Shown piece after piece: positions 3,701 through 35,586 of a stretch of DNA of 49,465 nt. The stretch covers positions 1 through 49,465 of the forward strand of contig JAGQIK010000651.1 in assembly GCA_020431405.1 (NCBI GenBank), given 5' to 3'. This DNA is from Myxococcales bacterium (GTDB taxonomy: Bacteria > Myxococcota_A > Polyangia > GCA-2747355). The position numbers and the translations under genes were made by a program. A model generated the notes under the pieces. That model was not told the origin of the DNA. It did no database searches and worked only from the letters and a program-made list of their open reading frames with translations. The first letter of the stretch is position 1. Every line of letters begins with the position of its first letter.

Positions 3701-5764
3701 CTGCAGATCTGTCCGACATGTGGGGAAGTCTATCCTGACGGCGACGCGGTTTGCCGGATGGATGGCAGCGACCTCGAGGCGTGGCAGCTCGAGACCAGCG
3801 CCACGGTGGCGCCCGGCGACGCGCACGCGCGCGACCTCGGCACGTCCAAGACCGTGCCCGTGTCAGCGGACGACGAGACACCGCCTCACCCTGGCGCAGT
3901 CCACACGGTCACCGTCATCCCCTACAACAACTCCAAGTGGTCGGGCCGCGCCAGCGCCGACAACGCCAAGATGGTGATCGACAAGGCCGAGGTGGTGATC
4001 GACAGGCGCCCGCCACCCGCCGCGGACGCCAACGCGCCCGAGGACAAGGTCGTCGTCGGCGACTCCCTCGAGGGGGCGCCCGTGATGGAGCTCGGGCGCG
4101 TGCTCGGCGAGCGCTACCAGCTCGATCACCAGACCGGCGTGGGCGGCTTCGGCGCCGTCTTCGCCGCGCGCGACCTGCGCCTCAACAAGCGCGTCGCGGT
4201 GAAGGTGCTCTCGCCGCGCGTCGCCGAGCGCGACGACATGCTCACGCGCTTCCGGCGCGAGGCCATCGCGGCCAGCCGCATCGGTCACGAGGGCATCGTC
4301 GACGTCACCGACTTCGATCGCGACGCCGACGGCACCCACTTCATCGTGATGGAGTTTCTGCACGGCAGCGACCTGGCCAACCTGCTCGACCACGAAAAGC
4401 GGCTCGCGCCGGTGCGCGCGCTCAGCATCGCGGCCCAGGTGGGAAACGCGCTCTATGCCGCGCACCTCAAGCGCATCGTGCATCGCGATCTCAAGCCGTC
4501 GAACATCTACCTCGTCGAGCGCCAGAGCCGCCACGACGCGGTCAAGATCATCGACTTTGGCATCTCCAAGATCCTGGCCCACTCGATCGCGCCCACCTCG
4601 GTGACGCGCCAGGGCGCGATCCTCGGCACGCCGTATTACATGGCGCCCGAGCAGGCGGCGCCTAGCGGCGAGCTCGACCATCGCGTCGACATCTACGCGC
4701 TGGGCGTGATCCTCTTCCAGATGCTCACCGGCCAGCGCCCCTTCACCGGCAAGAGCTACCTCAGCGTGCTCGACCAGCAGCGCAACAAGGCGCGACCCAA
4801 GCCAAGCGACGTCTACCCCGAGCTGCGCGAGCTGCCGATTGCCGACGCCCTCGACGCGCTGGTGGTCAAGGCGATGGCCAAGGACGCCGAGGCGCGGCAC
4901 AGCTCGATGATCGTGATGGTGCGCGACATCGTCGCGGCGCTCGAGGTGCTCGACGCGACCGCCGCCGACGTAGTGCGCCCGGTGCGCCCGCCGCGGCGCG
5001 CCACCGGTGATGCGCCAGTGATCGATCACACCGAGCCCGGCCTGGGTGACGGCGAGCTGCTCGACGAGGACCGCACCGTTCGCTACGGGCCCACCGAGAA
5101 GCCCAGCGCTGATGGCAAAGGGCCGCTCAAGCAGGAGGGCACCGAGACCGAGCTGCTCTCGAGGCTGGTGGTCGAGCGCGCCGAGGCGCAGGCGGCCCCC
5201 ACCGAGGAGCGCACGAGGCGCTCGTGGCTCGGCATCGGCGTCGCAGCAGCAGTGGTCGCCGCGGCGGTGATCGCCTTCGTCGCCACGCGTGGCAACCGGC
5301 CAGCCTCGGCCAACGGCGACAAGCAGACACACGCCGAGCAGGCAGCGGCAGCAAAGGCCGAAGCGGCCAAGCGCGCGGCGGCGGCAGCCAAGGCGGCAGC
5401 CGCCGGACAGGCGGCGGCGGCGGCCAACAAGGCCAAGGCGGCGGCGAGCAAGGGCGCAGGCTCGGCGAGCAAGGCCGCAGGCTCGGCGAGCAACGGCGCG
5501 CTGGAGACCGACGCGGCGGCCGCAGCCAAGGCCGGCGCCGACGAGCCGGGCATCGCTAGCGGCGGCAGCGCCAAAGGCACGGCCAAGCCCCGCACGGCCA
5601 AGCGCCAGCGCGAGCCGAAGCACGTGCCCAAGGGCAAGCCCAGGCGCAAGCCCAGGCGCAAGAAGGTGATCCGGCGCGCGCGCGCTGCCCACCCGAGCAA
5701 ACCCCCCAAGACCAAGCGCCCGCCGTCCAAGCGCAAGGCAAGCGACATCGCCCGCGAATGGTAA
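3701..5764 (+). CDS. Zinc-ribbon Ser/Thr protein kinase with one TM helix (CTG start)
   Basis: Hanks-type kinase of 687 residues. A zinc-ribbon-like N-terminus (C4, C7, C18) precedes a kinase domain at about residues 137-405: glycine loop GVGGFGAVF, VAVK lysine, HRDLKPSN catalytic loop near residue 263 and DFGIS near 285, followed by GTPYYMAPE. One TM helix lies at about 508-530, then a low-complexity Ala/Lys/Gly/Arg-rich tail. The start is inferred to be CTG: it sits 8 bases after a GGAGGG site and directly before the zinc ribbon. The only nearby ATG (3693) is out of frame. The stop overlaps the next start by 7 bases, so it is probably co-translated with the PEGA/TPR protein. Its targets are unknown. 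Confidence 0.9.
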   Translation: MQICPTCGEVYPDGDAVCRMDGSDLEAWQLETSATVAPGDAHARDLGTSKTVPVSADDETPPHPGAVHTVTVIPYNNSKWSGRASADNAKMVIDKAEVVIDRRPPPAADANAPEDKVVVGDSLEGAPVMELGRVLGERYQLDHQTGVGGFGAVFAARDLRLNKRVAVKVLSPRVAERDDMLTRFRREAIAASRIGHEGIVDVTDFDRDADGTHFIVMEFLHGSDLANLLDHEKRLAPVRALSIAAQVGNALYAAHLKRIVHRDLKPSNIYLVERQSRHDAVKIIDFGISKILAHSIAPTSVTRQGAILGTPYYMAPEQAAPSGELDHRVDIYALGVILFQMLTGQRPFTGKSYLSVLDQQRNKARPKPSDVYPELRELPIADALDALVVKAMAKDAEARHSSMIVMVRDIVAALEVLDATAADVVRPVRPPRRATGDAPVIDHTEPGLGDGELLDEDRTVRYGPTEKPSADGKGPLKQEGTETELLSRLVVERAEAQAAPTEERTRRSWLGIGVAAAVVAAAVIAFVATRGNRPASANGDKQTHAEQAAAAKAEAAKRAAAAAKAAAAGQAAAAANKAKAAASKGAGSASKAAGSASNGALETDAAAAAKAGADEPGIASGGSAKGTAKPRTAKRQREPKHVPKGKPRRKPRRKKVIRRARAAHPSKPPKTKRPPSKRKASDIAREW

Positions 5765-18679: not shown

Positions 18680-19618
18680 ATGTCGTCACCATCGCGCTCG
18701 CGGCTGCTGCTCGCCGTCTCGCTCGCGCTCGTCCTGCTCGCCGGGGCTGCGCGGCCCGCGCTGGCCGGGCCGTCTTCCGGCCGCGTCGGGCGTGCCCGCG
18801 CGCAGGCAGCTCTCGTCAAGAAGGGCAAGCGCCCGCCAGGCCGCCTGGCGCGCTGGCGCAAGCGCCTCGTCAAGGGCATCGGCGTGGCGCTGCTCGGCTA
18901 CACGCTGCTCGGCCCCATCGCGTTCGTCGCCAACAAGGCCGCCGTCAACAAGAGCGCCGATCGCACGGTGGTCTTCACCAGCGGCAGCTTCGACGGCATG
19001 GGGCTGCACATCCCAGAGCTGCCCAAGCTCGCTTCCACGACCACGCCGGAGGCGCGTGTCGACCCCAAGACGGGCATGGTGGTGCGCGCTGGCGATACGC
19101 CTGGCCAGCAGCCGGCGTCCAAGCCGCCCGGCGAGCGCTGGCGCGACAGCGACAAGGTCACGTTCGGTGATCGCGTCGCCACGGCGCTGGTGGACTGGGC
19201 GATGATCCCGCCGGTGGTGCTCGGCGAGACGCTGCGCGGCAACCGCGTCGAGTGGCACAGCGGCGCCAGCGCCGACGCCATCGGCGCGCGCCTTTCGCGC
19301 GGCCAGCACAAGAACGTGCGCTTCATCGGCCACGGTCGCACGGGCAGCTTCGCCGCCGCCGGCGGGCAGAATTTCACTGTCACCGACGTGCGCCGTCTCG
19401 GCATCGCCAAGACCGACGGCGAGGTGGTGCAGCACAGCTGCGGCGGCGGCGCGTGCCGCGAGTCGCTCGGCGCGAGCCTCACCACGCGAGCCGATCGCGT
19501 GCAGGAGTACGCCGACACCGTCTCCTGGCAGCAGCTGACCAAGCCCTGGCTGCGCACGCTCGACGACGCCGCGCGCAGCGTCACCGGTCGCCCGCCTACT
19601 GACCTCGCCGATCGCTGA
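18680..19618 (+). CDS. Secreted/membrane protein with a possible clan-CD peptidase His/Cys dyad
   Basis: 312 residues. A signal peptide or anchor (residues 7-30) is followed by a basic stretch and a second hydrophobic helix (about 55-78). The C-terminal part has FIGHGRTGS (H218, followed by Gly) after a hydrophobic strand, then VVQHSCGGG (C254) 36 residues later. An HG motif then an SC motif, each after a hydrophobic strand, is the signature of clan-CD cysteine peptidases (caspase/gingipain type); the family is not identified and other folds are possible. A sigma-54-like site lies upstream. Short spacing to neighbours on both sides suggests a single transcript. Confidence 0.62.
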   Translation: MSSPSRSRLLLAVSLALVLLAGAARPALAGPSSGRVGRARAQAALVKKGKRPPGRLARWRKRLVKGIGVALLGYTLLGPIAFVANKAAVNKSADRTVVFTSGSFDGMGLHIPELPKLASTTTPEARVDPKTGMVVRAGDTPGQQPASKPPGERWRDSDKVTFGDRVATALVDWAMIPPVVLGETLRGNRVEWHSGASADAIGARLSRGQHKNVRFIGHGRTGSFAAAGGQNFTVTDVRRLGIAKTDGEVVQHSCGGGACRESLGASLTTRADRVQEYADTVSWQQLTKPWLRTLDDAARSVTGRPPTDLADR

Positions 19619-19641
19619 TCGCACGCAGGCGCGCGACGCGC

Positions 19642-19908
19642 TCAGCTCGAGCGCTTGGCGCGCTGTCGCCCACGCGAGACGGCGACGATGGCGCCGATGA
19701 CCAGCGCCAGCAGCGGCCAGCGCGAGCCCATCACGCGCAAGATGATCGCCGTCGCCAGCGCCACGCTGAGCAGCGCCGCGCTGAGGCCCCAGCGCAGCGC
19801 GGCGTCGATCTCGCGCGGCAGCGGCAGCGCCACACTCGGGTGCGACGCCACCGTCACGTAGAGCGCCACCAGACCGAGCGTGGCGCTGAGCAGAAACAAC
19901 ACGATCAT
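19642..19908 (-). CDS. Small polytopic membrane protein
   Basis: 88 residues, probably three TM helices (about 2-20, 38-58, 62-78) and a basic C-terminal tail (RGRQRAKRSS). No family is recognised. The ATG at 19908 gives the clean hydrophobic start; an upstream ATG would add six residues. It converges with the peptidase-like gene, leaving 23 bases between. Confidence 0.5.
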   Translation of the reverse strand: MIVLFLLSATLGLVALYVTVASHPSVALPLPREIDAALRWGLSAALLSVALATAIILRVMGSRWPLLALVIGAIVAVSRGRQRAKRSS

Positions 19909-19926
19909 CGCTTCACACGATAGCAC

Positions 19927-20099
19927 TCTCCGCCGCGCCGAGGGCGCCTTCGGCAGCGATGGCGCGTACTTATCTCACTAGAATTATGAAGTTTTGTTAA
20001 GCCGAGACAATCGGAAAATTTGCGCTATGGTCCGGGCGGCGCAAAGATTTTTGCATCGTCGCGCATGTGTCACGTGTTACAGCGAGCTCTGTCCGAGTA
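19927..20099 (+). promoter_or_regulatory. AT-richer leader of the envelope-lipid operon
   Basis: About 170 bases without a gene. Positions 19970-20060 are clearly more AT-rich than the rest of the window (for example TTTTGTTAAG and GATTTTTGC) and must hold the promoter of the six-gene operon. No -35/-10 pair could be fixed with confidence; TATGGT at 20026-20031 is a weak candidate -10. Confidence 0.4.
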
Positions 20100-20846
20100 A
20101 TGTCTCCGAGCGCTCCAAGACGCGCCGTGGTCCTCGCCGCCGGCATGGGGACGCGGCTGGTGGAGACCTTCGACGGGCCCAAGCCCTTGGTGCCTGTCGC
20201 AGGCGTGCCGATCATCGTGCGCACACTGCGTGCGCTCGCGCTCGGCGGCGACGTGCGCGAGGCCTGCGTGGTGACGGGCTTTCGCGGCGACGAGGTGCGC
20301 GCCGGCGTCGAGTCGGCGGCCGCCGCGCTGCCGCTCGCGATCCGCTTCGCACAGAACGATCGCTGGGAAGAACCCAACGGCCTGTCGCTCGGCGCCGCGC
20401 GCGAGCTCGTCGGCGGCGAGAGCTTCTACCTCAGCATGGCCGATCACCTATTCGACCCACGCATCGTCGGGATGCTCGCCCAGTCGCCGCACCACGACTC
20501 GGTGCGGCTGGCCATCGACGAGAAGGTCGCCAGCGTCTTCGACTTCGATGACGCCACCAAAGTGCGGTGTGACAGCTCTCATCGCATTACGGCCATCGGA
20601 AAGCACATAGTTCCCTGTGACGCCGTCGACACCGGCGTCTTTTTGTGCACGGCGGAGGTCTTCGACGCGCTCGACGTCTCGGTAGAGCGCGGCGAGCGCT
20701 CGCTGTCGGGCGCCATGCAGGTGCTCAGCGAGCGCGGCAAGCTGCGCGGCGTGCCCATCGGTGACTGCCTGTGGCAGGACATCGACACGCCCGAGATGTA
20801 TCGCGTGGCGCAGGAGCTCGCCGTCAAGCTCGACGAGGTGCTCTGA
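20100..20846 (+). CDS. Nucleotidyltransferase resembling inositol-1-phosphate cytidylyltransferase
   Basis: 248 residues. The NTP-transferase signature LAAGMGTRL is at residues 13-21, KPLVPVAGVPI follows, and the metal-binding segment SMADHLF is near residue 117. The later part has TKVRC, ITAIGK and AVDTGVFLC, a pattern like IPCT enzymes that make CDP-inositol. The next gene is a CDP-alcohol phosphotransferase, so this enzyme most likely activates a polar head group (inositol phosphate or similar). The ATG at 20100 is preferred over a GTG 11 codons upstream. Its TGA overlaps the next ATG. The head group is inferred, not shown. Confidence 0.82.
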   Translation: MSPSAPRRAVVLAAGMGTRLVETFDGPKPLVPVAGVPIIVRTLRALALGGDVREACVVTGFRGDEVRAGVESAAAALPLAIRFAQNDRWEEPNGLSLGAARELVGGESFYLSMADHLFDPRIVGMLAQSPHHDSVRLAIDEKVASVFDFDDATKVRCDSSHRITAIGKHIVPCDAVDTGVFLCTAEVFDALDVSVERGERSLSGAMQVLSERGKLRGVPIGDCLWQDIDTPEMYRVAQELAVKLDEVL

Positions 20847-21823
20847 TGAGCCGAATGCCGCCGTTTTCGTCGCTGCTCAAGTCCCGCGAGGTCGAAGACC
20901 CGGTCAATCTGTGGATGCACCGGCCGATCGCCTACGTGATCGCGTCCGGCCTCTACCGCACGCCGGTCACGCCCAACCAGATGACGCTCGTCGCGATGCT
21001 GGTGGGGTTCGCCGCCGGCGCGCTGTGGTTGGTCGGCACGCCGACGATGATCATGATCGGCGGGATCCTGCTCTGGTCGAGCTCGATCCTCGACGGCGTC
21101 GACGGCATCCTCGCGCGCGCCAAGAACATGTCCTCCGACATCGGGCGCGCGCTCGACGGCACCGCCGACGTCTTCGTCGTCACCGCCACCGTGGTGCCGG
21201 CCTTCATCTATCTGCTGCGCACCTACGACCAGGTGAGCCTCGTCACGCTGCTGGCGATGATGGTCGTCGCGGTGATCACCACCCTGCCGCAGATCTATCT
21301 CTACGATTACTACAAAGAGGTCTATCTGCACGCCACGCGTCCCGGCGAGGAGCGCCGACGCGAGAGCGTCGACAAGGCCGAGGCGCGCGCGGCCAAGGCC
21401 AAGGCCGAGGGCGCGCCGATCTGGGTGCGCTTCTCGCTCAACGCCTACGTCGGCGTGCTGAAGAACCAGCAGCGCGTCGTGCGCCTGCTCAACCCAGCGA
21501 GCATCGACATCGAGCGCAGCGAGACCACCGAGAAGTCGGCCGAGATCTTCCGCCGCCACAACCACGGCCCGATGCAGCTGTGGACCTTCATCTCGCTTTG
21601 CCCGCACTCCTACCTGCTCGCCATCGCGGCGATCATCGGCCGCTTCGATCTGTACCTGTGGTTTCGCGTCGTCGGCGCCAACGCGTTGTTCATCATCGCG
21701 CTGATCTGGCAGCGCCACGCCAGCAGCCGCACGCTGGCCGAGGCCGAGCAGAGCGGGCTCGACTGGCCGGGCCACCATCACGGCCACGGTCACACGAGCG
21801 TCGGCGGTTTGCGCGGGTCCTAG
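20846..21823 (+). CDS. CDP-alcohol phosphotransferase
   Basis: 325-residue integral membrane enzyme. The full CDP-alcohol motif D-x2-DG-x2-AR-x8-G-x3-D-x3-D is present (DGVDGILAR, then G, then D and D), near residues 78-100. Several TM helices follow, with a charged cytoplasmic insert (about 160-215) and a His-rich C-terminus (HHHGHGH). It transfers a phospho-alcohol between CMP and an acceptor lipid or sugar. The tight junctions with both neighbours (overlap of 1 base, then no gap) place it in one lipid pathway with the cytidylyltransferase. The product may be a phosphoinositol-type lipid; the acceptor is unknown. Confidence 0.88.
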   Translation: MSRMPPFSSLLKSREVEDPVNLWMHRPIAYVIASGLYRTPVTPNQMTLVAMLVGFAAGALWLVGTPTMIMIGGILLWSSSILDGVDGILARAKNMSSDIGRALDGTADVFVVTATVVPAFIYLLRTYDQVSLVTLLAMMVVAVITTLPQIYLYDYYKEVYLHATRPGEERRRESVDKAEARAAKAKAEGAPIWVRFSLNAYVGVLKNQQRVVRLLNPASIDIERSETTEKSAEIFRRHNHGPMQLWTFISLCPHSYLLAIAAIIGRFDLYLWFRVVGANALFIIALIWQRHASSRTLAEAEQSGLDWPGHHHGHGHTSVGGLRGS

Positions 21824-22831
21824 ATGAAGCGAGCCCTCGCGTGGCTCGTCCCCGCGGCGGGCGCCGCCGTCGTCGTCTACCTCGTCATCGATCTCGGGCC
21901 GCGCCACCTCGCCGCGCAAGCGTCGCGCATGGGCTGGAGCATGGCTGCGCTGCTGGCGCTGCCGCTCTTTCTGTACGTCGTTCACGCCATCGGCTGGGGC
22001 TACACCATGTCGCCGGCCAACCGGCAGCGCGCCGGCCTGTGGCGTCTTACCGCGCTGCAGGCGTTCTCCTACGGCCTGTCCGGCGTTATCCCGCTGCAGG
22101 TCTTTGTCGCCGAGCCGCTCAAGCTCTCGTTTCTGCGCCACCCCGACTACGACCGCGCCGACCTCGGCGCCTCGGTGGTGCTCAACAACACGATCAACGG
22201 CGTGGCGATCGTGCTGTGGGCCATCGGGGGATTGCTCTACCTGGCGCTGGTGCTGGTCTCCGAGCCGTGGCTGCGCCTGGCGCTGATCGGCGCCACGCTC
22301 GCGCTGTGCGGCATCGTCGCGGCGCTGGTGCTGGTGCAGCGTCGCGGGCTGCTCTGCGGCATGCTCGGCCTCGCCGGCCGGCTCGGCTTTCGCGGCTTCA
22401 GCGAGCGGCACCTGCCCGCGGCGCGCCGCATCGACGACGCGGTGGCGGCGTTCTACCGCGAGCGGCGTGGCGCCTTCGCGGCCTCCCTCGGCTGTCACGT
22501 CGTCGAGAAGCTGCACGGCGTGGCCGAGTTCTGGGTCATCTTCAACGGCCTCGGCCTGCTCGTGTCGTGGGGCACCTGCTTCTTCATCTTCGCGGTGGTC
22601 AGCACCCTCGATAACGTGCTGTTCTTCGTGCAGCTGGGCGGTATGGAAGCCTGGGTGGCGTCGCTGTTGGCGCTGGTCAGGATCGATCGCCAGCGCGTCA
22701 ACATCACGGCGGCGCTCTTTCGCCGGCTACGCATGATCTTCTGGGCCATCGTCGCCGCGCTGGTAGCGTGGCCGGCGCGGCGGTTGATCGGCGATCACGC
22801 CGCGGTTGGCGCCGAAGAGTCACAGAGCTAG
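21824..22831 (+). CDS. LPG-synthase-TM-type (flippase-like) membrane protein
   Basis: 335 residues with about eight TM helices. The segment GVIPLQVFVAEPLKL near residue 90 and NNTINGVAI near residue 123 fit the lysylphosphatidylglycerol-synthase TM region family, members of which are thought to move or modify lipids (MprF flippase domain, glycosyltransferase partners). The soluble aminoacyl-transfer domain is absent, so a translocation role is more likely than synthesis. It starts directly after the stop of the CDP-alcohol enzyme. It probably flips the lipid made by the first two genes; this is inference from context. Confidence 0.8.
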   Translation: MKRALAWLVPAAGAAVVVYLVIDLGPRHLAAQASRMGWSMAALLALPLFLYVVHAIGWGYTMSPANRQRAGLWRLTALQAFSYGLSGVIPLQVFVAEPLKLSFLRHPDYDRADLGASVVLNNTINGVAIVLWAIGGLLYLALVLVSEPWLRLALIGATLALCGIVAALVLVQRRGLLCGMLGLAGRLGFRGFSERHLPAARRIDDAVAAFYRERRGAFAASLGCHVVEKLHGVAEFWVIFNGLGLLVSWGTCFFIFAVVSTLDNVLFFVQLGGMEAWVASLLALVRIDRQRVNITAALFRRLRMIFWAIVAALVAWPARRLIGDHAAVGAEESQS

Positions 22832-22849
22832 CGCCAACCTCACGGCCCG

Positions 22850-25234
22850 TTGAAAAAACCGTCCCCCACATCGCGCTGGGCGCGCTTTTCGGTCGAGCAT
22901 CGCTACAAGCTGCTCGTCGCGGTGGCCCTCTTGTGGGCTGCGGCGGCCTACGTGACTACCGGGCTCAAGTTCGACAGCTCGTTCTCGGCGCTGCTCGCGC
23001 CACAGACCCCCGAGCTGGTGGAGGTCAATCGCCTGCTGCGACGGGTCGGCGGCGCGGCCGAGCTGGTGGTCGCCATCGGCGGCAAGGACAAGCAGGCGCG
23101 GCTGCGCTTCGGCCGGCTGGTGGCCAACAAGCTGCGCGCGCGGCCTTGGATTCGCGGCGCCGATGTCGAATACCCGATCGAGTTCTTCCTCGACCGCAGG
23201 CTGATGCTGCTAAGCCTCGAGCGGCTCGAAAAGCTCGCCAAGCGCATTAGCGACGAGATCGACCGCGCGCGCGCGCGCAGCAACCCGCTCTACGTCGATC
23301 TCGAGGACGACGACAGCAAGAAGAAGGACGACAAGCCGCGCTGGCAGGCGCTGCGATCGGCCAAGCTCGGCCCGCAGCAGTCACAGCTCGCGCGCACCTT
23401 CGGCACAGCCGACGGCAAGTACCTCTTCGTGCGCGTCAAGCCGATGGGCGCGACCTACAACTTCGGCAGCGGCGGTGAGCTGCTGCGGCGCATCAAGGCC
23501 GACGTCGCGTCGCTCGATGCGGCGCGCCACGGCGTCACAGTGCGTTTTGCCGGCGGCCTCGAGATCAACCAAGAGCAGCACCGCCGCATGGGCTCCGATC
23601 TGCGGCGCGCCTCGCTGCTGTCGCTGGTCGCCATCGTGCTGCTCGTGACGGTCTACGTGCGCCGTGTCGAGGCCGTGCTGCTGCTGGCGGTCCCGCTGGT
23701 GGGCGGCGTGGTGACGACGCTCGGCCTGACGACGCTGATCATCGGTCAGCTCAACATCGTCTCCGGCTTTCTCGTCAGCGCGCTGTTCGGTCTCGGCATC
23801 GACTTCGCGATCCATCTCTACCTGCGCTACCTCGAACGGCTCGACGCCGGCGACGACCGCTTCGACGCCATGCGCGACGCCATCGCGCACACCCTCACGC
23901 CGTGCGTGACGGCGGCGCTGACCACCGCAGGCGCCTTCTTCGCGATGGCCTTCGCCAACTTCCGCGGCTATCGCGAGTACGGCATCATCGCCGGGGCGGG
24001 CGTGCTGATCACGCTGGTGACGATCTTCGTCGCGCTGCCGCCGCTGGCGCTGTTGACCAGCCGCAAGCCGCGTCGCCGCGGGCGTCGCACCCCGCGCGCG
24101 CCGCGCCGCGGCGTGATCCTGGCGATGGTGCTGATCGGCAGCGCGCTGTTTGTCGGCGCCGCGATCAAAGCGCCCGAGGTGCGCTGGCACAACGACTTCC
24201 GCAAGCTGCGCGGCACGTCGGCGGCGGTGGACTTCAGCATGCAGGTTGGCAAAGCGCTGGGCGGCGATCTATCGCCGGCCGCGGTCTACGTGGAAAACCT
24301 CGACCAGGCGCGGCGCGTGGTGAAGTACGTCGAGGCGCGCTGGGAGCGCGGCCCGAGCTCGCCCGTGCGCTACCACCTCTCGCTATCGCAGATGGTGCCG
24401 CACCGGGCGGCCGCTAAGCAGAAGGTGCTCGCCGCGCTGCAGACCAAGCTCGAGAAGCTCGCGCGCCGGCCGCTCGACAAGACCGATCGTGCGCGCGTCG
24501 ACGAGCTGCTCCGCCTCGTCAAGGTCAAGCCGTGGACACTCGCCGACGTGCCGGAGGTTTTCCGGCGGCCGCTCTCCACGCTCGACGGGCGCGGCCAGCT
24601 CGTCGCGCTGTGGCCGCGCCATAACACCGACATCGATCGCGAGATCATCGCCTGGGCCAAGGTGCTCGACACGGCGCGCAGAGAGCTGCACAAGCTCGGC
24701 ATTCCCGCGCAGATGATGGACGAGAACCGCGTCTCCGCGCGCGTGCTGAGCGAGATGCGCGCCGACGCGCCAGTGGTGCTCGGCGCCGCCGCTGCCGTGG
24801 TGCTGTTGGTGCTGATCGTGCACTTCCGGCGCCCGCGCCACGTCGCCATCGTCGCCGGCAGCCTCGTGGTGGGCATGGTCTGGATGCTCGGCCTGCTCGC
24901 GGTCTGGAACATCGACCTCAACGTATTCAACCAAGCGGTGCTGGCGACCATCATCGGCGTTGGCATCGACAACGCGGTGCACATCTATCATCGCGTCGTG
25001 CGCGAGGGGCCGCGCGCCCTGCCGCAAGTGCTGCAGACGACGGGCTCGGCGGCGCTGCTCGCGTCGGTGACGACCGCGCTCGGTTTCGGCACGGCGATCA
25101 CGGCCTCGCATCTGGGCATCCAGTCCTTCGGTTGGCTCGCCATCGCCGGCCTGAGCAGCGTCTTCGTGGCCACCACGGTGTTCTTTCCAGCGGTGCTGCT
25201 GCTGACGACCGGGCGGCGCGAGAAGGGCGAGTAA
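22850..25234 (+). CDS. MMPL/RND-family lipid exporter
   Basis: 794 residues with the RND/MMPL layout: TM1 near residues 22-42, a periplasmic loop to about 255, TM2-6 at about 258-405, TM7 near 422, a second loop to about 640, and TM8-12 to the end. The segments FGLGIDFAIHLYLR and IGVGIDNAVHIYHR mark the paired TM4-like helices, with an Asp in each, as in HpnN-like exporters. No partner periplasmic adaptor is next to it. A TTG start is used, 18 bases after the upstream gene. It probably moves a lipid from the inner membrane toward the outer membrane, linking the synthesis genes and the barrel gene. Confidence 0.86.
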   Translation: MKKPSPTSRWARFSVEHRYKLLVAVALLWAAAAYVTTGLKFDSSFSALLAPQTPELVEVNRLLRRVGGAAELVVAIGGKDKQARLRFGRLVANKLRARPWIRGADVEYPIEFFLDRRLMLLSLERLEKLAKRISDEIDRARARSNPLYVDLEDDDSKKKDDKPRWQALRSAKLGPQQSQLARTFGTADGKYLFVRVKPMGATYNFGSGGELLRRIKADVASLDAARHGVTVRFAGGLEINQEQHRRMGSDLRRASLLSLVAIVLLVTVYVRRVEAVLLLAVPLVGGVVTTLGLTTLIIGQLNIVSGFLVSALFGLGIDFAIHLYLRYLERLDAGDDRFDAMRDAIAHTLTPCVTAALTTAGAFFAMAFANFRGYREYGIIAGAGVLITLVTIFVALPPLALLTSRKPRRRGRRTPRAPRRGVILAMVLIGSALFVGAAIKAPEVRWHNDFRKLRGTSAAVDFSMQVGKALGGDLSPAAVYVENLDQARRVVKYVEARWERGPSSPVRYHLSLSQMVPHRAAAKQKVLAALQTKLEKLARRPLDKTDRARVDELLRLVKVKPWTLADVPEVFRRPLSTLDGRGQLVALWPRHNTDIDREIIAWAKVLDTARRELHKLGIPAQMMDENRVSARVLSEMRADAPVVLGAAAAVVLLVLIVHFRRPRHVAIVAGSLVVGMVWMLGLLAVWNIDLNVFNQAVLATIIGVGIDNAVHIYHRVVREGPRALPQVLQTTGSAALLASVTTALGFGTAITASHLGIQSFGWLAIAGLSSVFVATTVFFPAVLLLTTGRREKGE

Positions 25235-25268
25235 CTGCCGCCCAGGTGCGCTATTGTCGGCGCGTCCT

Positions 25269-26735
25269 ATGAGGAGCCGTCGCGCCGGAGCGCCGCGCGC
25301 CATCGCGCTGGGTGTGGCGCTGATGCTGGGTGCGAGCAGCGCGATCGCCGCACCGACGTCGCAACCGACGTCGCAGCCGGCGTCGTCACCGGTGCAGCAC
25401 GCGGGGCGATCGATTCAGCCGACGTCGCGACCGGTGCAGCACACGGCGGCCTCGGTGGCCGGCGCACCGCGACCTGACGAGAGCTCCGGCCGTCGAAGAG
25501 CGCCCGCCACGACCACGGCGAACACGCTGCGCTGGATCCCGCGCGTGCTCTTCTTCGTGCCGCGCTGGGCCTTGACCGCCGTCTTTCTGCCCATGCGGGG
25601 ACTGTCCTATCTGTGGGACCGCTACCAGATCGGCGAGCAGCTCACCGACATCTTCTTCAACGACGAGCGCACCTTCGGCATCTACCCGGTGGTCGAGATC
25701 CAGACCGGCTTTGGCGCCAACGTCGGCGCCGGCATGGTCTATCGCAACATCTTCGGCCGCGACGAGCGCTTCGCCGCGCGGGCGAGCTTTGGCGGGCGTT
25801 ATCTGCAGCACTACGCGGCAGACCTGGTGAGCGGCAAGCGCTGGCTGCCGCTGCACCTCACGCTCTACGGTGGCTATCACGTCGGCAACAACGAGCGCTT
25901 CTATGGCTTCGGCAATGGCGACGAGGCGCGCATCGACGGGGTCGCGCGCGACGCGCTGCTGCGCGGGCCCGCCTTCGGTGCGCGCTATCGCTACGATCGT
26001 GGCACTGTCGGCGTCACGGCGGCGCTGCGCCTGATGCCGCGCGTGTCGTTGCGGCTCGGCACGCGCCTCACGCGCCAGACCTTCTTCGACGAAAACGCCA
26101 GCGTCAGCGGCGATGAGGCCATCGAGCGCGTCTTCGAGCCGCAGACGCTGGTCGGCTTCGAGCGCGACCTGGCCAACCTCGACAGCAGCGTCGAGCTGCG
26201 CATCGACGCGCGCACGCGCGCGAGCATCTACGTGCCGCCGGCGATGTACTCGAGCGGCCCCTTCTTGTCGGCCAAGCTCAGCTACGTCGAAGGCTTTGGC
26301 CCCGATCCTTCCAACTACGTGCGCTACCTGCTGGACGCCAGCTACACGTTCGACCTCTTTCAAGGCACGCGCACGCTCGAGCTGCGCCTGCGGCTCGAAG
26401 GCGTGTCGGCCGAGCTCGAGCGGCTGCCCTTCAGCGACGCGCCGCAGCTCGGCGGCGGTCAGCTGCTGCGCGGCTACCTGCCGGGGCGGTTTCGTGATCG
26501 CGTGGCGCTGCTCGGCTCGGTGCAGTATCGCTTCACGGTCACTCATCACGTGCTCGCCTACCTGTTCGTCGACAGTGGTCGTGTCTACGACGACATCTCG
26601 TCGGTGAGCTTCAGGCAGCTTCGCGTCGGTTTCGGCGGCGGCCTCGTCGTGCACCGTTTTATCGAGGGCTTTGCCCTCACCGCGCAGCTCGCAGGCACGC
26701 CCGATGGTGACGTGCGCTTCGACCTGCAGTTCTAG
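25269..26735 (+). CDS. Outer-membrane beta-barrel protein, BamA/Omp85 (surface antigen) type
   Basis: 488 residues with a signal peptide (ending SSAIAAP), then a Thr/Ser/Gln/Pro repeat stretch (TSQP, PVQH units, about 28-65), and then a long series of alternating beta strands to a terminal DVRFDLQF, the kind of C-terminal strand recognised by the BAM complex. The segment LGGGQLLRGYLPGRFRD near residue 395 fits the conserved RGY element of bacterial surface antigens. POTRA domains are not evident. The preferred ATG at 25269 is 34 bases after the exporter gene. It likely forms the outer-membrane end of this export operon. Confidence 0.8.
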   Translation: MRSRRAGAPRAIALGVALMLGASSAIAAPTSQPTSQPASSPVQHAGRSIQPTSRPVQHTAASVAGAPRPDESSGRRRAPATTTANTLRWIPRVLFFVPRWALTAVFLPMRGLSYLWDRYQIGEQLTDIFFNDERTFGIYPVVEIQTGFGANVGAGMVYRNIFGRDERFAARASFGGRYLQHYAADLVSGKRWLPLHLTLYGGYHVGNNERFYGFGNGDEARIDGVARDALLRGPAFGARYRYDRGTVGVTAALRLMPRVSLRLGTRLTRQTFFDENASVSGDEAIERVFEPQTLVGFERDLANLDSSVELRIDARTRASIYVPPAMYSSGPFLSAKLSYVEGFGPDPSNYVRYLLDASYTFDLFQGTRTLELRLRLEGVSAELERLPFSDAPQLGGGQLLRGYLPGRFRDRVALLGSVQYRFTVTHHVLAYLFVDSGRVYDDISSVSFRQLRVGFGGGLVVHRFIEGFALTAQLAGTPDGDVRFDLQF

Positions 26736-26744
26736 GAGACGACC

Positions 26745-28424
26745 ATGCAGCGCGCAGCCAGATGGATGTTGCTCGCGGCAGCGAGCGTCGCGGTGGGCTG
26801 CCGGCCGCCGCGCACGGTGGGGCGCGTGCGTTTTGTCAATCGCCCACCGGTGTGGGTCGTCAACGACCGCGAGCACGTCGCCAAGCGGCCGCAGGAGCTC
26901 AAGCAGCTGGTGCTGCTCGACCATCTCGACGCCGTGATCTTCCAGCGCATCCCGTATCTGCTGGCGATGCACCCGCGCCTGCGCGCGCGCGCCGTCAACA
27001 GCGTCGACGACGTGCCCGACTCGACGTGGTTCACCAACCGTATCGGGCGGCGCGCGCTGCGCCCGGCGGCGCTCGCGCGTGGTCCCAACCGCCTGCCGCC
27101 GGCCGACCAGCGGCTGCCGCTGACGGTGCTGAGCACCAAGGTCGGCGGCGGCTCGGTGGGTTTCATCGTCGCCGACAACAGCGGCGTGCGCTACCTGCTC
27201 AAGTTCGACACCAAAGGCGCGCCCGAGCGCGAGACCGGCGCCGACGTCATCGTGCAGCGCATCCTGTGGGCTTGCGGCTACAACGTGCCCGAGGACGACG
27301 TGATCCACCTGCGCGCCGAGGATCTGAAGCTCGCCGCCAACGCCAAGATCAAGGACGTCTTCGGCAAGCCGCGGCCCATGACCCAGCGCGACCTCGACGT
27401 GGCCCTCGGCAAGATCGACGTCGGCGGCGACGGCCGCATCCGCGCGCTGGCCAGCCGCTTCCTCTCGGGCAAGCTGCTTGGCGGCTTTCCGATGCTGGGC
27501 GTGCGCGAAGGCGATCCCAACGACCGCGTCCCGCACCAGCATCGCCGCGACGTGCGCGGGCAGCGCGCGCTCTTTGCCTGGCTCAACCACAACGACGTCA
27601 AAGAGGACAACACGCTCGACATGTACGTGCGCGACCCCGCCGACCCGGCGCGCAAGTACGTCGTGCACTACCTGATCGACTTCGGCCAGGCGATCGGCAC
27701 GCGCGGCGCGGCGCGGCGCCGCGACGTCGGCTTCGCGCGCTACGAGGACCTGCAGTGGGCACTGCCGAGCCTGCTCTCGCTGGGCATCTGGGTGCGCCCG
27801 TGGGAGCGCCTCGAGCGGCCGGCGATTCACGGCGTGGGTCTGTGGTCGGCCGCGTCATACCATCCCGATAGCTGGGAGCCGTCGAAGGACTACTGGCCGT
27901 TTCACGAGGCCGACCGCTTTGACGGCTTCTGGGCGGCCAAGCTGATCGCGCGCTTTTCGCCGGCGCACCTCGAGCAGGCCGTGCGCGCCGCGCGCTACAG
28001 CGACGCCGCGGCCATCGCCAAGATCGTCGAGGTGCTGCGCCAGCGCGCGCGCCTCACCATCGCGCCCTACTTCGAGCGCGTCAGCCCGCTCGATGGTTTT
28101 CGCGTCGCTGACGGCGAGCGGCTGTGCTTTTCAGATCTGGCGATCGAGCACGGCTACGCCGCGGCCGAAAAGACGCGCTATGCGCTGCGCGCCTACGACG
28201 AGCGCGCGCGAGAGCTGCCCGCGCCGCAGCTGGCGGCGAGCGCCGCGCGAGGCCGAGGCCAGCGCTGCGTCTCGCCGCTGCCGCGCAGCCCGTCGGCCGA
28301 CGGCTATCTGATCGTGCAAGTCGTCGCGCAGCGCGACAGCAAGGCGCTGCCACCGCTCGACGTGCACCTCGCGCGCGCGCCGAAGGACGGGCGGCTGCGC
28401 GTGATCGGCCTCTGGCGACACTAG
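26745..28424 (+). CDS. Lipoprotein with an apparent kinase-like fold
   Basis: 559 residues. The lipobox is AVGC (C19). A segment YLLKFDTKGAPERETGADV (around residue 151) offers a lysine and a nearby acidic helix. Near residue 280 the run LNHNDVKEDNTLDMY looks like a catalytic loop (HxDxKxxN), and about 30 residues later LIDFGQAIG looks like a DFG metal site. Order and spacing fit an atypical protein or lipid kinase fold, though the glycine loop is not clear. It is the last gene of the six-gene operon, 9 bases after the barrel gene. If active it would need ATP in the periplasm or act as a pseudokinase; the identity is inferred. Confidence 0.68.
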   Translation: MQRAARWMLLAAASVAVGCRPPRTVGRVRFVNRPPVWVVNDREHVAKRPQELKQLVLLDHLDAVIFQRIPYLLAMHPRLRARAVNSVDDVPDSTWFTNRIGRRALRPAALARGPNRLPPADQRLPLTVLSTKVGGGSVGFIVADNSGVRYLLKFDTKGAPERETGADVIVQRILWACGYNVPEDDVIHLRAEDLKLAANAKIKDVFGKPRPMTQRDLDVALGKIDVGGDGRIRALASRFLSGKLLGGFPMLGVREGDPNDRVPHQHRRDVRGQRALFAWLNHNDVKEDNTLDMYVRDPADPARKYVVHYLIDFGQAIGTRGAARRRDVGFARYEDLQWALPSLLSLGIWVRPWERLERPAIHGVGLWSAASYHPDSWEPSKDYWPFHEADRFDGFWAAKLIARFSPAHLEQAVRAARYSDAAAIAKIVEVLRQRARLTIAPYFERVSPLDGFRVADGERLCFSDLAIEHGYAAAEKTRYALRAYDERARELPAPQLAASAARGRGQRCVSPLPRSPSADGYLIVQVVAQRDSKALPPLDVHLARAPKDGRLRVIGLWRH

Positions 28425-28465
28425 CAGGTTGCTGAAAAGGCGCGGCGCGCCTTTCCTGCACCTGC
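28424..28465. terminator. Composite hairpin at the end of the kinase-like lipoprotein gene
   Basis: Outer arms GCAGGT (28424-28429) and ACCTGC (28460-28465) enclose a perfect 9-bp inverted repeat AAAGGCGCG/CGCGCCTTT with a one-base centre (28436-28454). It begins on the last base of the stop codon. It is probably the terminator between convergent genes and may also be the end of the dispersed element. Confidence 0.55.
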
Positions 28466-28473
28466 TCGTCACG

Positions 28474-28574
28474 AAGGGGGGCATGTCCCATGCCCCCTCG
28501 GCCCGAAAAAGCGTCGTTTTTCGGGCCTCACCCCCCAATGTCGGCTTCGCCGGCTCGGCCTGTTCGGCCTCGCA
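28474..28574 (-). repeat. Dispersed 100-bp intergenic element, copy B
   Basis: This is the reverse-complement match to 11876-11975 (four substitutions, one indel), with the same two internal hairpins. It again sits between convergent genes. Outward on both sides lie TAGCAGG-x-TGCTGAA sequences in inverted orientation (28422 on +, 28608 and 28650 on -), so the whole unit looks like a small non-autonomous element with inverted ends. Confidence 0.85.
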
Positions 28575-28581
28575 GCAGGGC

Positions 28582-28665
28582 GTTGAAGAGTTCTTCAGCA
28601 CCCTGCTAGCGTTGCAGGCCGGCGCTGAAGAGTTCTTCAGCACCCTGCTAGCGTTGCAGGCCGGC
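28582..28665 (-). repeat. 42-bp tandem duplication at the end of the SARP gene
   Basis: Units 28582-28623 and 28624-28665 differ at one base. Each carries the final codons and TAG of the SARP gene followed by an 8-bp hairpin (GCTGAAGA arms, one unit with a wobble). The gene therefore ends in unit two, and unit one is a spare copy of its stop and hairpin. Confidence 0.85.
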
Positions 28666-30657
28666 GCTCACCAGCGCGTCGACGAGCTGCTGCGCGTCGC
28701 GCGCGTGCTTGAAGGGCAATGAGGCGACGAAGCGCTCGGCGCTGAAGGTGGGCACGCGCGCGCGCAGGGCGGCGAGGCGTGGCTCGAGCAAGGCGGCTTC
28801 GGCGTGCGCGCAGGCGGCGACGGACGCGACGAGCGCCTGCAGATCGGCGGCGTTGATACGCGCGGCGCAGCGCGCGGCCTCGGCGTGGTTGCCCGTCTGG
28901 CGGTGCAGCCGGCTGAGGTGCAAGAAGTAGCGGTCCGAGTGGTACGGGTTGACGCGCATCGCGCGCTCGACCCACGCGACCCCGTCGGCGCCGCGCCCCA
29001 GGAAATACGAGAGCTCGCCCATCTGACAGAGGATGCGGTCGTCGTTTGGGTTGAGCGCCATGGCGCGCGCCTGGTGGTGCTCGGCGAGATCGAAGTTGCG
29101 CGTGAGCAGGTTGATCGCGGCGAGGATGCGATGACATTCGCCTTCGTCGTCGTCGAGGGCCAGCGCGCGCTGAGCCGCCTGATACGCCAGCGCGAGGTAC
29201 TGCATGGCCTGCTGCTTGCGCGCGTGCGCCATCTTGAGCCCGTAGGCACAGCCCAGCCAGGCGTGCGCCAGCGCGTACTGCGGGTCGGTCTCGATGGCGC
29301 GCTCGAACATCTCGCGCGCGTCGTCGGCGCCTTTTTCGTCGAAGCGGTGGTGGTGGCACTTGCCGCGCAGCACGAAGTCGTGTGCCAGCAGCGCGTCGGG
29401 CGACTTGCGGCGCGCGCGCGAGAGCTGCGCCGCCTCGACGCGATCGGCGAGCGTCGCGACGATGGTGCGCAGGAGCTCGTCTTCGAGCTCGAACAGCTCG
29501 TCGGGGCGCACCTTGTAGCGGTTGGCCCACAGGTGACGCCCGCTGGCGCCGTCGATGAGCTGCGCCGAGATGCGCAGCGACTGCGGACCGCGCCGCACGC
29601 TGCCGTGCACGATGTAGTGGGCGCCGAGCCGCTCGGCGATCTGCGGGATCGAAAGCGCTTCGTCGCGCAGCCGGAAGCTCGACGTGCGCGCGATGACGAT
29701 CAACGAGCGAAAGCGCGTTAGCTCGGTGATGAGATCTTCGGCGATGCCGTCGCTGAAGTAGTCGTCGTCCTCGTTGGAGAGGTTTTCTAGCGGCAGCACG
29801 GCGACCACCGGCAACGCAGCGTGGGGCGTCACGCGCGGCGCGTGGGGCAGGGCGCTCACGGCGCGCGTCGCCGCCTCGGCGCTCTCCGCGGCCGGCGTCG
29901 TCGTGGGCTCGGGCGTGCTGGCCGCGCGCAGGCGCTGATAGAGCGCGTTGGTCTCGGCTTCGGGCTTCGCTTCGTAGGCGCGCGCGAGCGCCTCGACGCA
30001 GCGTTCGTACTGCGCCAGCGCGTCGGAGCGGCGGCCGGCCGCGTCGTAGCGCCGCATCAGCGCGCGGTGCGCCGCCTCGCAGGCGGGATCGATCTCGAGC
30101 CAGCGTTCGATGGCCGAGATGGCGCCCTCGTGCTCGCCGGCTGCGTCATGCAGCGTGGCGAGGCGCTGCAGGGCGTCGCACGCGCGGTCGCGCGCGCGGC
30201 GGCGCTCGTCGTCGAGCCAGCGGTCGAACTCGTCGACGTCGAGGAAGAAGCCGCCCATCAGCTCGCCGAGATAGATCGTCAGCACGCGCTCGAGCGCTTC
30301 GCGCTGCTGCTCGCCCCCGCCGTCGCCGGCGATCGCGATCGCCTCGGCGAGCGCGTCGACGTCGCTGGCGGCGACAAGCGCCAGCGCGTCGTCGTCGCTC
30401 TGCAGCGCCTCGTCGCCGAGGCTGCGGCGCAGCGCCGCGACGCACTGACGCAGGTTGTGGCGCGCGCGTTGTGGTCCGGTGTCTGCCCACAAGAGCGTGG
30501 CCAGCGTGGCGCGTGGCGCGCGGCGTTGCGGCTGCAGCGCCAAGTAGCAGAGCAGCGCGCGCCCCTTCTTGTTGTTCAGCGAGACGTCGCCGCCGCCGCC
30601 GGCCCGCTCGACTCGGAAGCCACCGAAAAGATGAAGCTTTATCGCTGCCTCGACCAT
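28648..30657 (-). CDS. SARP-type regulator with BTAD, TolB-like and TPR domains
   Basis: 669 residues from the preferred start (longer in-frame starts exist at 30732 and 30768). The N-terminus (IKLHLFGGFRV, about 6-90) is a winged-helix DNA-binding domain like AfsR/SARP. A bacterial transcriptional activation domain with TPR helices follows (about 90-260). Next is a TolB-like segment VAVLPLENLSNED..DYFSDGIAEDL (about 290-400) and a C-terminal TPR array (about 430-640). This architecture occurs in proteobacterial regulators that control metabolism or envelope genes; no effector is known. It diverges from the methyltransferase gene, whose promoter it may control. The start at 30657 leaves 128 bases for divergent promoters. 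Confidence 0.82.
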   Translation of the reverse strand: MVEAAIKLHLFGGFRVERAGGGGDVSLNNKKGRALLCYLALQPQRRAPRATLATLLWADTGPQRARHNLRQCVAALRRSLGDEALQSDDDALALVAASDVDALAEAIAIAGDGGGEQQREALERVLTIYLGELMGGFFLDVDEFDRWLDDERRRARDRACDALQRLATLHDAAGEHEGAISAIERWLEIDPACEAAHRALMRRYDAAGRRSDALAQYERCVEALARAYEAKPEAETNALYQRLRAASTPEPTTTPAAESAEAATRAVSALPHAPRVTPHAALPVVAVLPLENLSNEDDDYFSDGIAEDLITELTRFRSLIVIARTSSFRLRDEALSIPQIAERLGAHYIVHGSVRRGPQSLRISAQLIDGASGRHLWANRYKVRPDELFELEDELLRTIVATLADRVEAAQLSRARRKSPDALLAHDFVLRGKCHHHRFDEKGADDAREMFERAIETDPQYALAHAWLGCAYGLKMAHARKQQAMQYLALAYQAAQRALALDDDEGECHRILAAINLLTRNFDLAEHHQARAMALNPNDDRILCQMGELSYFLGRGADGVAWVERAMRVNPYHSDRYFLHLSRLHRQTGNHAEAARCAARINAADLQALVASVAACAHAEAALLEPRLAALRARVPTFSAERFVASLPFKHARDAQQLVDALVSAGLQR

Positions 30658-33006: not shown

Positions 33007-35586
33007 GTGAGCCGTGATCGCCCGCCGTCGTCCGATGCGCACGAGATAAAGAGAGTCGAGGTCGCGCCCGAGCTTTCGGATACGCAGCCCAACGTCGAGG
33101 TGCCCGGCGCCGCGCTCAAGCAGACGCCCGAGCAGCTCGAGCAGCGCCAGCGCGAGCAGGAAAAGGCGGAGCGCAAGCAGCACCTCACGCCGCCGCCGCG
33201 CCCGCGTCGCGACACCAAGCGCGGCGCGCTGTGGAGCGGGCGCCTGCGTCCCGGCGAGGAGCTCGGCCGCGGCGCCACCGGCACCGTGCTGCGCGGCACC
33301 GACGTCAAGCTGCGCCGCGACGTGGCGCTCAAGGTCACGCGCCTGCCGCGCGGCGAGCTGCCCACCCAGCTGTTCGCGCGCTTCGTCGAGGAAGCGCAGA
33401 TCACCGCGCAGCTCGAGCACCCCAACGTGGTGCCGGTGCACGACTTCGGCACCGACCCGGAGGGCCACGCCTACTTTTCGATGAAGCTGGTGCGCGGTCA
33501 GTCGCTCGAGGAGATCCTCGCGCGCCGCCGCGCCGGCGACCCGGCCACGGTCTCCGAGTTCGGCCTGCGCCGGCTGCTCGACGTGTTTCTCACCGTCTGC
33601 AACGCCATCGAGTACGCCCACGCGCACGGCGTGATCCACCGCGACCTCAAGCCAGCCAACATCATGGTCGGCGACTTCGGCGAGGTCCTGGTGATGGACT
33701 GGGGCATCGCCAAGCTGATCGGGCGCGACGAGCCGGCCGCCTCGCTCGGCATGACCGGCGAGCACCCGCTCTCGGAGAGCACGGCCAGCAAGACCGGCGG
33801 CGACATCTCCTCGGTGCGCGAAGACGCCAAGGCGCTCGCCACCCAACACGGCATGGTGCTCGGCACGCCGGCGTACATGTCGCCCGAGCAGGCCCGCGGG
33901 CTCGAGCTCGACGGCCGCAGCGACATCTACTCGCTGGGCGTGATCCTCTACGAGATCTTGTGCGGCCGCGTGCCGTTCGACAGCCCCGATCCGGTCGACG
34001 CCGTCTCGCGGCTGCTCGTCGAAGAGCCGACGGCGCCGTCAAAGATCGATCCGCGCACGCCGCCAACCCTCGAGGTGCTGGCGCTGCTGCTGCTCGAAAA
34101 GGATCGCGACAAGCGCACGCTCAGCATCCGGCAGGTGCGCTCGCACATCGAGGACTACATCGAGGGCATCGGCCGCGCCTACCGCCGCGAGAGCATCGGC
34201 ACCAACATCCTGTGGCTGGTCGGCGCGCTGGGCCTGTTCGCCTTCCTCGTCTGGTATCTCACGGGCCAGTCGGTGGCGACCGTGGTAGCGATGACGCCCT
34301 CGGCGGTCTTCAACGCCCTCGGCTGGCTGCTCTTCGTGCTCGCGCTCGGCTATCCGTTATGGGCCGTGACCACCAGCGTGGGCATGAGCGGCGCCGAGCA
34401 CGGTCTGTTCAAGCCGCCCACCGTCAGCGAGCTGTTCGTCTCGGGCTACTTATCGCATCGCACCTTCGCCACCACCGTAGCGCCGCTGTTTCAGCTGGTC
34501 TTTGTCGCCGAGACGGTGGCGGCCGCCGTGCAGCAGCCGGTGGCGCGCGCGCTCGAGCAGGTACGCGCCGAGTGGGCCAACGCGCTGATCGTCATCATCG
34601 TCTTTCTGTTCGCTTACCTTCTGACCTTCTCGCTCGAAGTGCGCTTCGCGCGCCGCATCGACCGCTACGTGCGCCTGGTGCGCCGCCGCGCGTGGGAGTC
34701 GATCTGGCCCTTCGCGCTGATCATCGTGCTGCTGGGCAGCGTCATCGCCACTGACGCGCTGACCTGGTCGCCGTCGGGCGCCGACAGCGGCGTCTGGGCC
34801 TACATCAAAGAGCGCATCCTGTGGCGCGAGCTGCACCCCTTCGAGGTGGTCAAGACGCTCGTCTTTCAAGGCACGTTCCTCGTCGGCCTGGTGATGGCGA
34901 CGCTGGTCTTGGCCTTTCCGTTCTCGGAGCTCTTGGCCTCGCTGCGGCTGACCTACCAGGCCGTCGATCAAGCCTCGGTGACCACGCGCAAGCGCTACTT
35001 CCTGCGCTCGCTGGCGGTCTTTCGCATCGCGCGCACCAACTTCCTTTACGCCGGCGCGATGATCGGAAGCCTCACGGGGCTGACGATCCTATCGGGGCAG
35101 AGCCGCGCGCCGCTGGTCGAGCAGGTCGTGTTCGTGCTCGGCCCGTCGCTGATCGGCTTCATCGGCTTCGTGATCATGGGCCGCAAGACAGCGGCCTATA
35201 TCGCCGACGCCCCCGCGCTGCAGCGCATGCTCGACGACGAGCTGGCCGTCGCGCGCCACGAGCACGCCATCGCCGATCTCGACGTCCTGCGCGCCGCGTC
35301 GCTGCGCCGCCGCATGCTGCAGCTGGTGGTGCCGCTGGTGTGCATCGCCGGCTATCTGATCTGGAGCGGCACCGGCTTTCACCAGAAGGCCTTGCGCGAG
35401 CTGATGCTGCCGGTGAGCGCCAAGGGCTGGCTGCTGATCCTGCCCTACGCCTCGCTGGTGGTGGTGCTGCTGGTTCGCCATCCCGTGCAGGTGTGGCTGC
35501 TGCGGCGGCGCGTGCGGCGCGCCGAGCTCGCCGAGCCACCACAGCCCGAGCTCACGCGCCGCGAAGACGACACCGTCGAAGTGTAG
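33007..35586 (+). CDS. Ser/Thr protein kinase with a large polytopic C-terminal domain
   Basis: 859 residues. A charged N-terminal region (about 1-80) precedes the kinase domain (about 81-375): LGRGATGTVLRG loop, VALKV lysine, HRDLKPANIM near residue 212 and MDWGIAK near 230 (DWG in place of DFG), then GTPAYMSPEQ. Residues from about 400 onward form roughly eight to ten TM helices with Arg-rich loops; they resemble no transporter that I recognise. The GTG start lies after a weak GTGAG-like site. The layout is a cytoplasmic kinase fused to a membrane sensor or channel-like part. No partner gene is in the same operon. Confidence 0.87.
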   Translation: MSRDRPPSSDAHEIKRVEVAPELSDTQPNVEVPGAALKQTPEQLEQRQREQEKAERKQHLTPPPRPRRDTKRGALWSGRLRPGEELGRGATGTVLRGTDVKLRRDVALKVTRLPRGELPTQLFARFVEEAQITAQLEHPNVVPVHDFGTDPEGHAYFSMKLVRGQSLEEILARRRAGDPATVSEFGLRRLLDVFLTVCNAIEYAHAHGVIHRDLKPANIMVGDFGEVLVMDWGIAKLIGRDEPAASLGMTGEHPLSESTASKTGGDISSVREDAKALATQHGMVLGTPAYMSPEQARGLELDGRSDIYSLGVILYEILCGRVPFDSPDPVDAVSRLLVEEPTAPSKIDPRTPPTLEVLALLLLEKDRDKRTLSIRQVRSHIEDYIEGIGRAYRRESIGTNILWLVGALGLFAFLVWYLTGQSVATVVAMTPSAVFNALGWLLFVLALGYPLWAVTTSVGMSGAEHGLFKPPTVSELFVSGYLSHRTFATTVAPLFQLVFVAETVAAAVQQPVARALEQVRAEWANALIVIIVFLFAYLLTFSLEVRFARRIDRYVRLVRRRAWESIWPFALIIVLLGSVIATDALTWSPSGADSGVWAYIKERILWRELHPFEVVKTLVFQGTFLVGLVMATLVLAFPFSELLASLRLTYQAVDQASVTTRKRYFLRSLAVFRIARTNFLYAGAMIGSLTGLTILSGQSRAPLVEQVVFVLGPSLIGFIGFVIMGRKTAAYIADAPALQRMLDDELAVARHEHAIADLDVLRAASLRRRMLQLVVPLVCIAGYLIWSGTGFHQKALRELMLPVSAKGWLLILPYASLVVVLLVRHPVQVWLLRRRVRRAELAEPPQPELTRREDDTVEV

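Follow-up and report, generated by a model that had tools for sequence, protein, structure and literature searches.

A Myxococcales gene set that may join inositol-lipid synthesis and export to an outer-membrane barrel and kinase-fold lipoprotein pair

Six closely spaced genes in a Myxococcales genome raise the question of whether a single operon makes an envelope lipid, carries it outward and modifies it at the outer membrane, as was proposed in a sequence-only reading of the same DNA. The genes occupy positions 20100-28424 of the stretch analyzed here (the window: 49,465 nucleotides of contig JAGQIK010000651.1, C467 in our numbering, from assembly GCA_020431405.1, which comprises 11.2 Mb in 733 contigs). 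The six genes, their order and their protein classes proved to be as that reading gave them, judging from the open reading frames (ORFs; all on the + strand), the junctions between them (-1 with a TGATG overlap, 0, +18, +34, and +9 bases), Pfam matches for genes 1-5, and a lipobox and an AlphaFold kinase fold for gene 6. In every ORF, the GC content at third codon positions (GC3, 0.88-0.94) contrasts with that at second positions (GC2, 0.44-0.50), supporting real coding. We lean toward regarding the set as a two-module operon, in which genes for inositol-lipid synthesis and export (genes 1-4) are joined to an outer-membrane kinase/barrel pair (genes 5-6). The combination is partly new, bringing together an inositol-lipid pathway known in outline and an undescribed pair. 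No description of the whole set was found in the literature searched, consistent with the earlier reading, by which it is not known as a described system, and literature searches on extracytoplasmic kinases and on Myxococcota inositol and MMPL lipids yielded no description of the pair.

Genes for a putative inositol lipid and its export

Gene 1 (P0006; 20100..20846, + strand) encodes a nucleoside triphosphate (NTP) transferase resembling inositol-1-phosphate cytidylyltransferase, with a match to NTP_transf_3 in Pfam (1e-10) and the motif LAAGMGTR at residue 12. Its best family is IPCT-DIPPS (NF041135), at 110.5 bits vs. 63 bits for the next family. The curated cut-off of 580 bits is reached neither by gene 1 nor by gene 2 (55 bits), and a single-domain protein such as gene 1 is not expected to reach it because the model describes a fused enzyme of 419 positions. 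The best PDB sequence matches of gene 1 are 2xme (5e-20 over residues 8-237), 4mnd, and 4jd0, of which the first two are named inositol-1-phosphate cytidylyltransferase and the third has been reported as such (PMC12275187). The gene 1 product would make cytidine diphosphate (CDP)-inositol. Gene 2 (P0001; 20846..21823, + strand) encodes a CDP-alcohol phosphotransferase (PF01066, CDP-OH_P_transf, 6e-14) in which the family motif D-x2-DG-x2-AR-x7..9-G-x3-D-x3-D is present in full (DGVDGILAR..G...D...D) as DGVDGILARAKNMSSDIGRALDGTAD. Its closest PDB entries are 4o6m and 4mnd, and it would put phospho-inositol on a lipid alcohol. An inositol-3-phosphate synthase, for which the sequence-only reading had advised a search, is encoded in the same genome on contig C695 (TIGR03450, 2e-128).

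In a scan of named genomes, relatives of gene 2 were found in metagenome-assembled genomes of Myxococcota and Deltaproteobacteria, 42-57% identical over the best segment, together with one weaker match; a plasmid search with gene 2 returned only distant matches from Bacteroidota and Sphingomonas. Among 31 distinct gene 2 loci (L128 being the same as L046, and L135 the same as L038), the fetched stretch contains an inositol-1-phosphate synthase in 11, an MMPL gene in 12, and an NTP transferase match, in some cases weak, in 15, and all three counts are lower bounds because many of the contigs are short. Homologs of genes 1 and 2 are clustered with the synthase in many of these loci (L036, L041, L042, L044, L046, and L129). 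In L041, the order is CDP-alcohol transferase, NTP transferase, synthase, and MMPL; in L036, it is CDP-alcohol transferase, synthase, NTP transferase, a second CDP-alcohol transferase, a polysaccharide-type flippase, a radical SAM protein, and MMPL; and in L046, CDP-alcohol transferase, synthase, and NTP transferase are followed by a radical SAM protein, a second CDP-alcohol transferase, an LPG_synthase_TM protein, and MMPL. In the gene 2 tree, the synthase-bearing loci are spread over several branches, among which the tree does not settle the precise position of the gene 2 protein. Inositol is the very probable head group, given the family and PDB matches of gene 1 and the linkage to the synthase in relatives, the latter being the stronger evidence; the CDP-activated head group of the earlier reading, which was thought to be perhaps inositol, gains support from that linkage. 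Radical SAM proteins recur beside inositol-lipid genes (L033 8956-10158 and 11864-12946, L036 10462-11511, L046 7550-8569), accompanied by a second CDP-alcohol transferase that is extended at its N terminus.

Gene 3 (P0002; 21824..22831, + strand) encodes a flippase-like membrane protein of the HpnL/LPG_synthase_TM type (PF03706, 2e-16), which matches HpnL at 1.5e-20, under the cut-off. By Pfam, it consists only of the transmembrane region PF03706 (residues 11-310 of 335) with no C-terminal aminoacyl-transferase domain of the MprF lysyl-transferase type, so that of its earlier description as like lysylphosphatidylglycerol (LPG) synthase or flippase, the flippase-like part stands and the catalytic part is absent. 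Among the gene 2 loci with relatives of genes 1-2, one (L046) has a gene 3 homolog, located between a CDP-alcohol transferase and MMPL (31% identity over 239 amino acids, E 1e-10). Gene 4 (P0003; 22850..25234, + strand, TTG start) encodes a putative MMPL/RND lipid exporter similar to HpnN and BstA (PF03176, 6e-32), with the motifs GLGIDFAIH and GVGIDNAVH, and lies below the NCBIfam cut-offs of HpnN (TIGR03480, 234 of 752 bits), NF052374 (124 of 1100), and BstA (163 of 1400). Flippase-like and MMPL components, as the earlier reading had placed here, recur in the clusters of relatives. The closest MMPL paralog in the same genome is 46% identical to gene 4 and lies 16 bases after an AOS-family gene (L179 2348-6238). 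A sphingolipid link through this AOS-family enzyme was considered and set aside, its scores falling between BioF, KBL, and serine palmitoyltransferase and reaching no cut-off.

The outer-membrane barrel and the kinase-fold lipoprotein

Gene 5 (P0004; 25269..26735, + strand) encodes an outer-membrane barrel of the Omp85 superfamily (PF01103, 2e-14). Its model has 16 strands (AlphaFold confidence, pLDDT, 77.5) and matches TamA/BamA in Foldseek (E 1e-11 to 1e-9), and the Omp85 motifs (V/L)RG(F/Y) and FxDxG occur as LRGY at 400 and FVDSG at 433. Pfam gives no POTRA match, and in the model, a low-confidence segment (residues 1-65) is followed by helices, with no POTRA-like strands before the barrel. 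Gene 6 (P0005; 26745..28424, + strand) encodes a lipoprotein whose model (pLDDT 91.5) combines an atypical secreted-kinase fold with a beta-sandwich at the C terminus. It has no Pfam match, and a profile search with its family against PDB and Pfam returned nothing significant. The kinase fold is predicted with confidence from the model, which aligns by VIA-align with CtkA (Z 15.6, 231 residues, 3.9 A), Fam20C (Z 14.4, 261 residues, 4.1 A), PI4KII (Z 12.7, 246 residues, 4.8 A), and HipT (Z 10.4, 237 residues, 4.8 A); the part after residue 447 aligns with FN3-like beta-sandwiches, with low Z only. Across the family, K153, D284, and D312 are kept in 33/33 members and N289 in 32/33, which makes catalytic competence plausible, and the lipobox cysteine is present in 30/33.

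Genes 5 and 6 are a second, independently conserved module. Of 379 Myxococcota genomes sampled, 46 contain the gene 6 family, many of them with two or three members, at most three lipoprotein candidates having been scored per genome; with a refined Omp85 profile, 31/40 of the family genes have an Omp85 gene as their immediate upstream neighbor in the same orientation. A second Omp85/lipoprotein pair exists in the genome of the window (L087 2009-5421, contig C274). Within the stretches fetched, 19/39 lipoprotein loci (L079, L080, L089-L098, L165-L168, L170, L172, L174) have a homolog of TLC-type ATP/ADP carriers (PF03219) vs. 0/31 gene 2 loci (Fisher p 1e-6, uncorrected for shared descent), and PAP2 phosphatases accompany eight lipoprotein loci. 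These carrier-like proteins could supply ATP outside the cytoplasm. The six genes are accordingly not one conserved system; with regard to gene order, the full six were seen only in this genome among those searched, while the lipid sub-module is conserved in relatives.

Only one other lipoprotein locus (L084/L159; L084 6813-18453, L159 1526-7229) has CDP-alcohol transferase and flippase-like genes. It comprises Omp85, lipoprotein, TPR, and purple acid phosphatase genes, MMPL and a CDP-alcohol transferase on the opposite strand, and then LPG_synthase_TM and the second of its two CDP-alcohol transferases, in an order different from that of the window. The barrel and the lipoprotein may also be fused in one uninterrupted frame in L171 (2-2890), where the draft-genome contig is only 3.6 kb long, and L085 carries a truncated barrel fused to a truncated lipoprotein. 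An apparent fusion in L080 and in L086, where the open frames run long, was rejected, the two genes being in different frames.

One operon, two modules and the alternatives

It is possible, if on the whole unlikely, that two unrelated modules adjoin here, genes 1-4 serving an inositol lipid and genes 5-6 forming a separate kinase/barrel device with no part in it. That would agree with the recurrence of the pair across Myxococcota without lipid genes and with the carrier-like genes present at 19 of the 39 lipoprotein loci and at none of the gene 2 loci. Several other observations likewise weigh against a two-module operon built around inositol. The Omp85 and lipoprotein genes are found in 0 of the distinct gene 2 loci fetched, and the full six-gene order in no other genome searched, only four genomes of the same order having been compared, two of them incomplete; the closest relatives of gene 4 in other genomes, 38-39% identical, stand without the other five genes nearby; and the synthase match on contig C695 is the only one in the genome, with none beside the operon. 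For a joint unit speak the tight junctions, including the 34-base gap between genes 4 and 5, which share a strand with no coding-strand promoter-like site found between them, the recurring pairs, and the differently arranged L084/L159 locus, which also puts the pair beside MMPL, flippase-like, and two CDP-alcohol transferase genes.

The identity of the lipid itself bears on three further explanations. Since 4jd0 is also the best structural match of the phosphoglycerate cytidylyltransferase CpgD (PMC12275187), the substrate of gene 1 is not fixed by sequence alone, and phospho-alcohols vary within this enzyme class; phosphocholine, phosphoglycerate, or a sugar phosphate might be activated instead. 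We consider such a head group improbable in view of how repeatedly the relatives cluster with inositol-1-phosphate synthase and of the lead of about 48 bits that IPCT-DIPPS holds as the top family for gene 1. That the bifunctional IPCT-DIPPS model is the best match for both proteins would also suit the synthesis of the soluble osmolyte di-myo-inositol phosphate, with no lipid involved, but both proteins fall far under the cut-off of this fused-enzyme model, and their coupling, in this genome as in relatives, to membrane proteins of the flippase-like and MMPL classes leaves this explanation scarcely credible. A role for the MMPL pump and the flippase-like protein as hopanoid or sterol carriers unrelated to inositol is hinted at by HpnN and HpnL being their top NCBIfam matches and by a hopene-cyclase homolog in the genome, itself under the family cut-off. 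Such a function, followed up through the similarities to HpnN, HpnL, and BstA and through a cyclase search, was set aside as very unlikely, every score being under its cut-off, those of the two carriers far under, and MMPL relatives being found in inositol-phosphate synthase clusters.

The two-module operon draws on gene order, predicted folds, motifs, and, in relatives, the genomic linkage of genes 1-4 to the synthase. From these we infer, as follows, which reactions take place, which lipid is the acceptor, which way transport runs, and how the modules are coupled. Inositol 1-phosphate from the synthase encoded elsewhere in the genome would be activated by gene 1 to CDP-inositol, and gene 2 would transfer phospho-inositol onto a lipid alcohol, for example diacylglycerol or ceramide. 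Gene 3 may flip the resulting lipid across the inner membrane, from which the MMPL pump of gene 4 would pull it out for export. The barrel and the kinase-fold lipoprotein, elsewhere a pair of their own, would here be tied to the same inositol lipid, and lipid insertion or modification at the outer membrane, as envisaged earlier, may be their task; gene 6 would most likely phosphorylate the exported lipid or a periplasmic partner protein, or help the barrel place the lipid. A more specific scheme is speculative and has a small chance of being correct: gene 6, as a lipoprotein kinase of the outer membrane or periplasm, would phosphorylate the exported inositol lipid, a bacterial phosphoinositide would be made outside the cytoplasm, the Omp85 barrel would display the kinase or move the lipid, and the carriers near the pair would supply ATP in other Myxococcota.

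Gene 1 is preceded by an AT-rich gap, and an inverted repeat (28430..28460, no strand; 15-nt arms, 87% complementary) after gene 6 is a weak candidate for the end of the transcription unit. The terminator scan did not call this repeat, and its signals exceeded those of shuffles but lay mostly within genes; the promoter scan of 19500-28800 found no coding-strand promoter-like site, and neither scan therefore sets the bounds of the unit. Just downstream (28567-28650), a 42-nt unit is present in two tandem copies that are 86% identical. Ser/Thr protein kinase domains also occur in two large proteins, encoded at 3380-5764 and 33007-35586, some way off on either side of the region.

Bacteria seldom contain inositol lipids, and for the CDP-inositol route there is a proposal that awaits confirmation. 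That many Myxococcota link this route to the synthase and to an MMPL exporter opens it to direct testing and hints at a way for inositol lipids to exit the inner membrane. The conserved pairing of Omp85 with a kinase-fold lipoprotein, often near ATP/ADP-carrier-like genes, raises ATP-dependent phosphorylation outside the Gram-negative cytoplasm as a question.

Comparison with known systems

In the Archaeoglobus and Thermotoga IPCT-DIPPS enzymes (2xme, 4mnd, 4jd0), the IPCT part is matched by gene 1 over nearly its full length and the DIPPS half by gene 2. Unlike those enzymes, genes 1 and 2 are separate, score under the curated cut-off, and lie in a membrane-lipid setting. In Caulobacter, the genes for ceramide diphosphoglycerate likewise use a cytidylyltransferase to feed a phosphosphingolipid head group, but CpgD uses phosphoglycerate, and a link to inositol-phosphate synthase is not described for it (PMC12275187).

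The similarity of the transport proteins to HpnN, BstA, and HpnL is at the family level, with GxGxD kept in both halves of gene 4; the scores are far under the cut-offs, and, unlike in those systems, hopanoid or sterol genes are not adjacent. Gene 5 resembles TamA and BamA in its 16 strands and its LRGY and FxDxG motifs and differs from them in being without POTRA and in being paired with a kinase-fold lipoprotein. Gene 6 shares with Fam20C, CtkA, and type II PI4K a kinase fold with the lysine, the HxD-type aspartate, the asparagine, and the DFG aspartate; unlike these, it is a lipoprotein and carries an additional beta-sandwich at its C terminus, and no sequence-level match to them was found in Pfam or the PDB.

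Myxococcus xanthus is known to have ceramide phosphoinositol, and in Bacteroidetes (Bacteroides vulgatus), an alternative inositol lipid cluster includes an NTP transferase, a CDP-alcohol transferase, and the inositol-phosphate synthase MIPS, for which a Kennedy-type route through CDP-inositol has been proposed, unconfirmed; an LPG-synthase-like gene, termed lysylphosphatidylglycerol synthase, lies near both Bacteroidetes inositol lipid clusters (PMC9246714). Unlike the Bacteroidetes cluster, the gene set has no HAD hydrolase, Pfam giving no HAD domain among the six proteins, and the synthase is encoded elsewhere in the genome. The two share the adjoining NTP transferase and CDP-alcohol transferase genes, the LPG-synthase-like neighbor, and the link to the synthase, here in relatives; an MMPL exporter and the Omp85/kinase pair are additional in the six-gene set.

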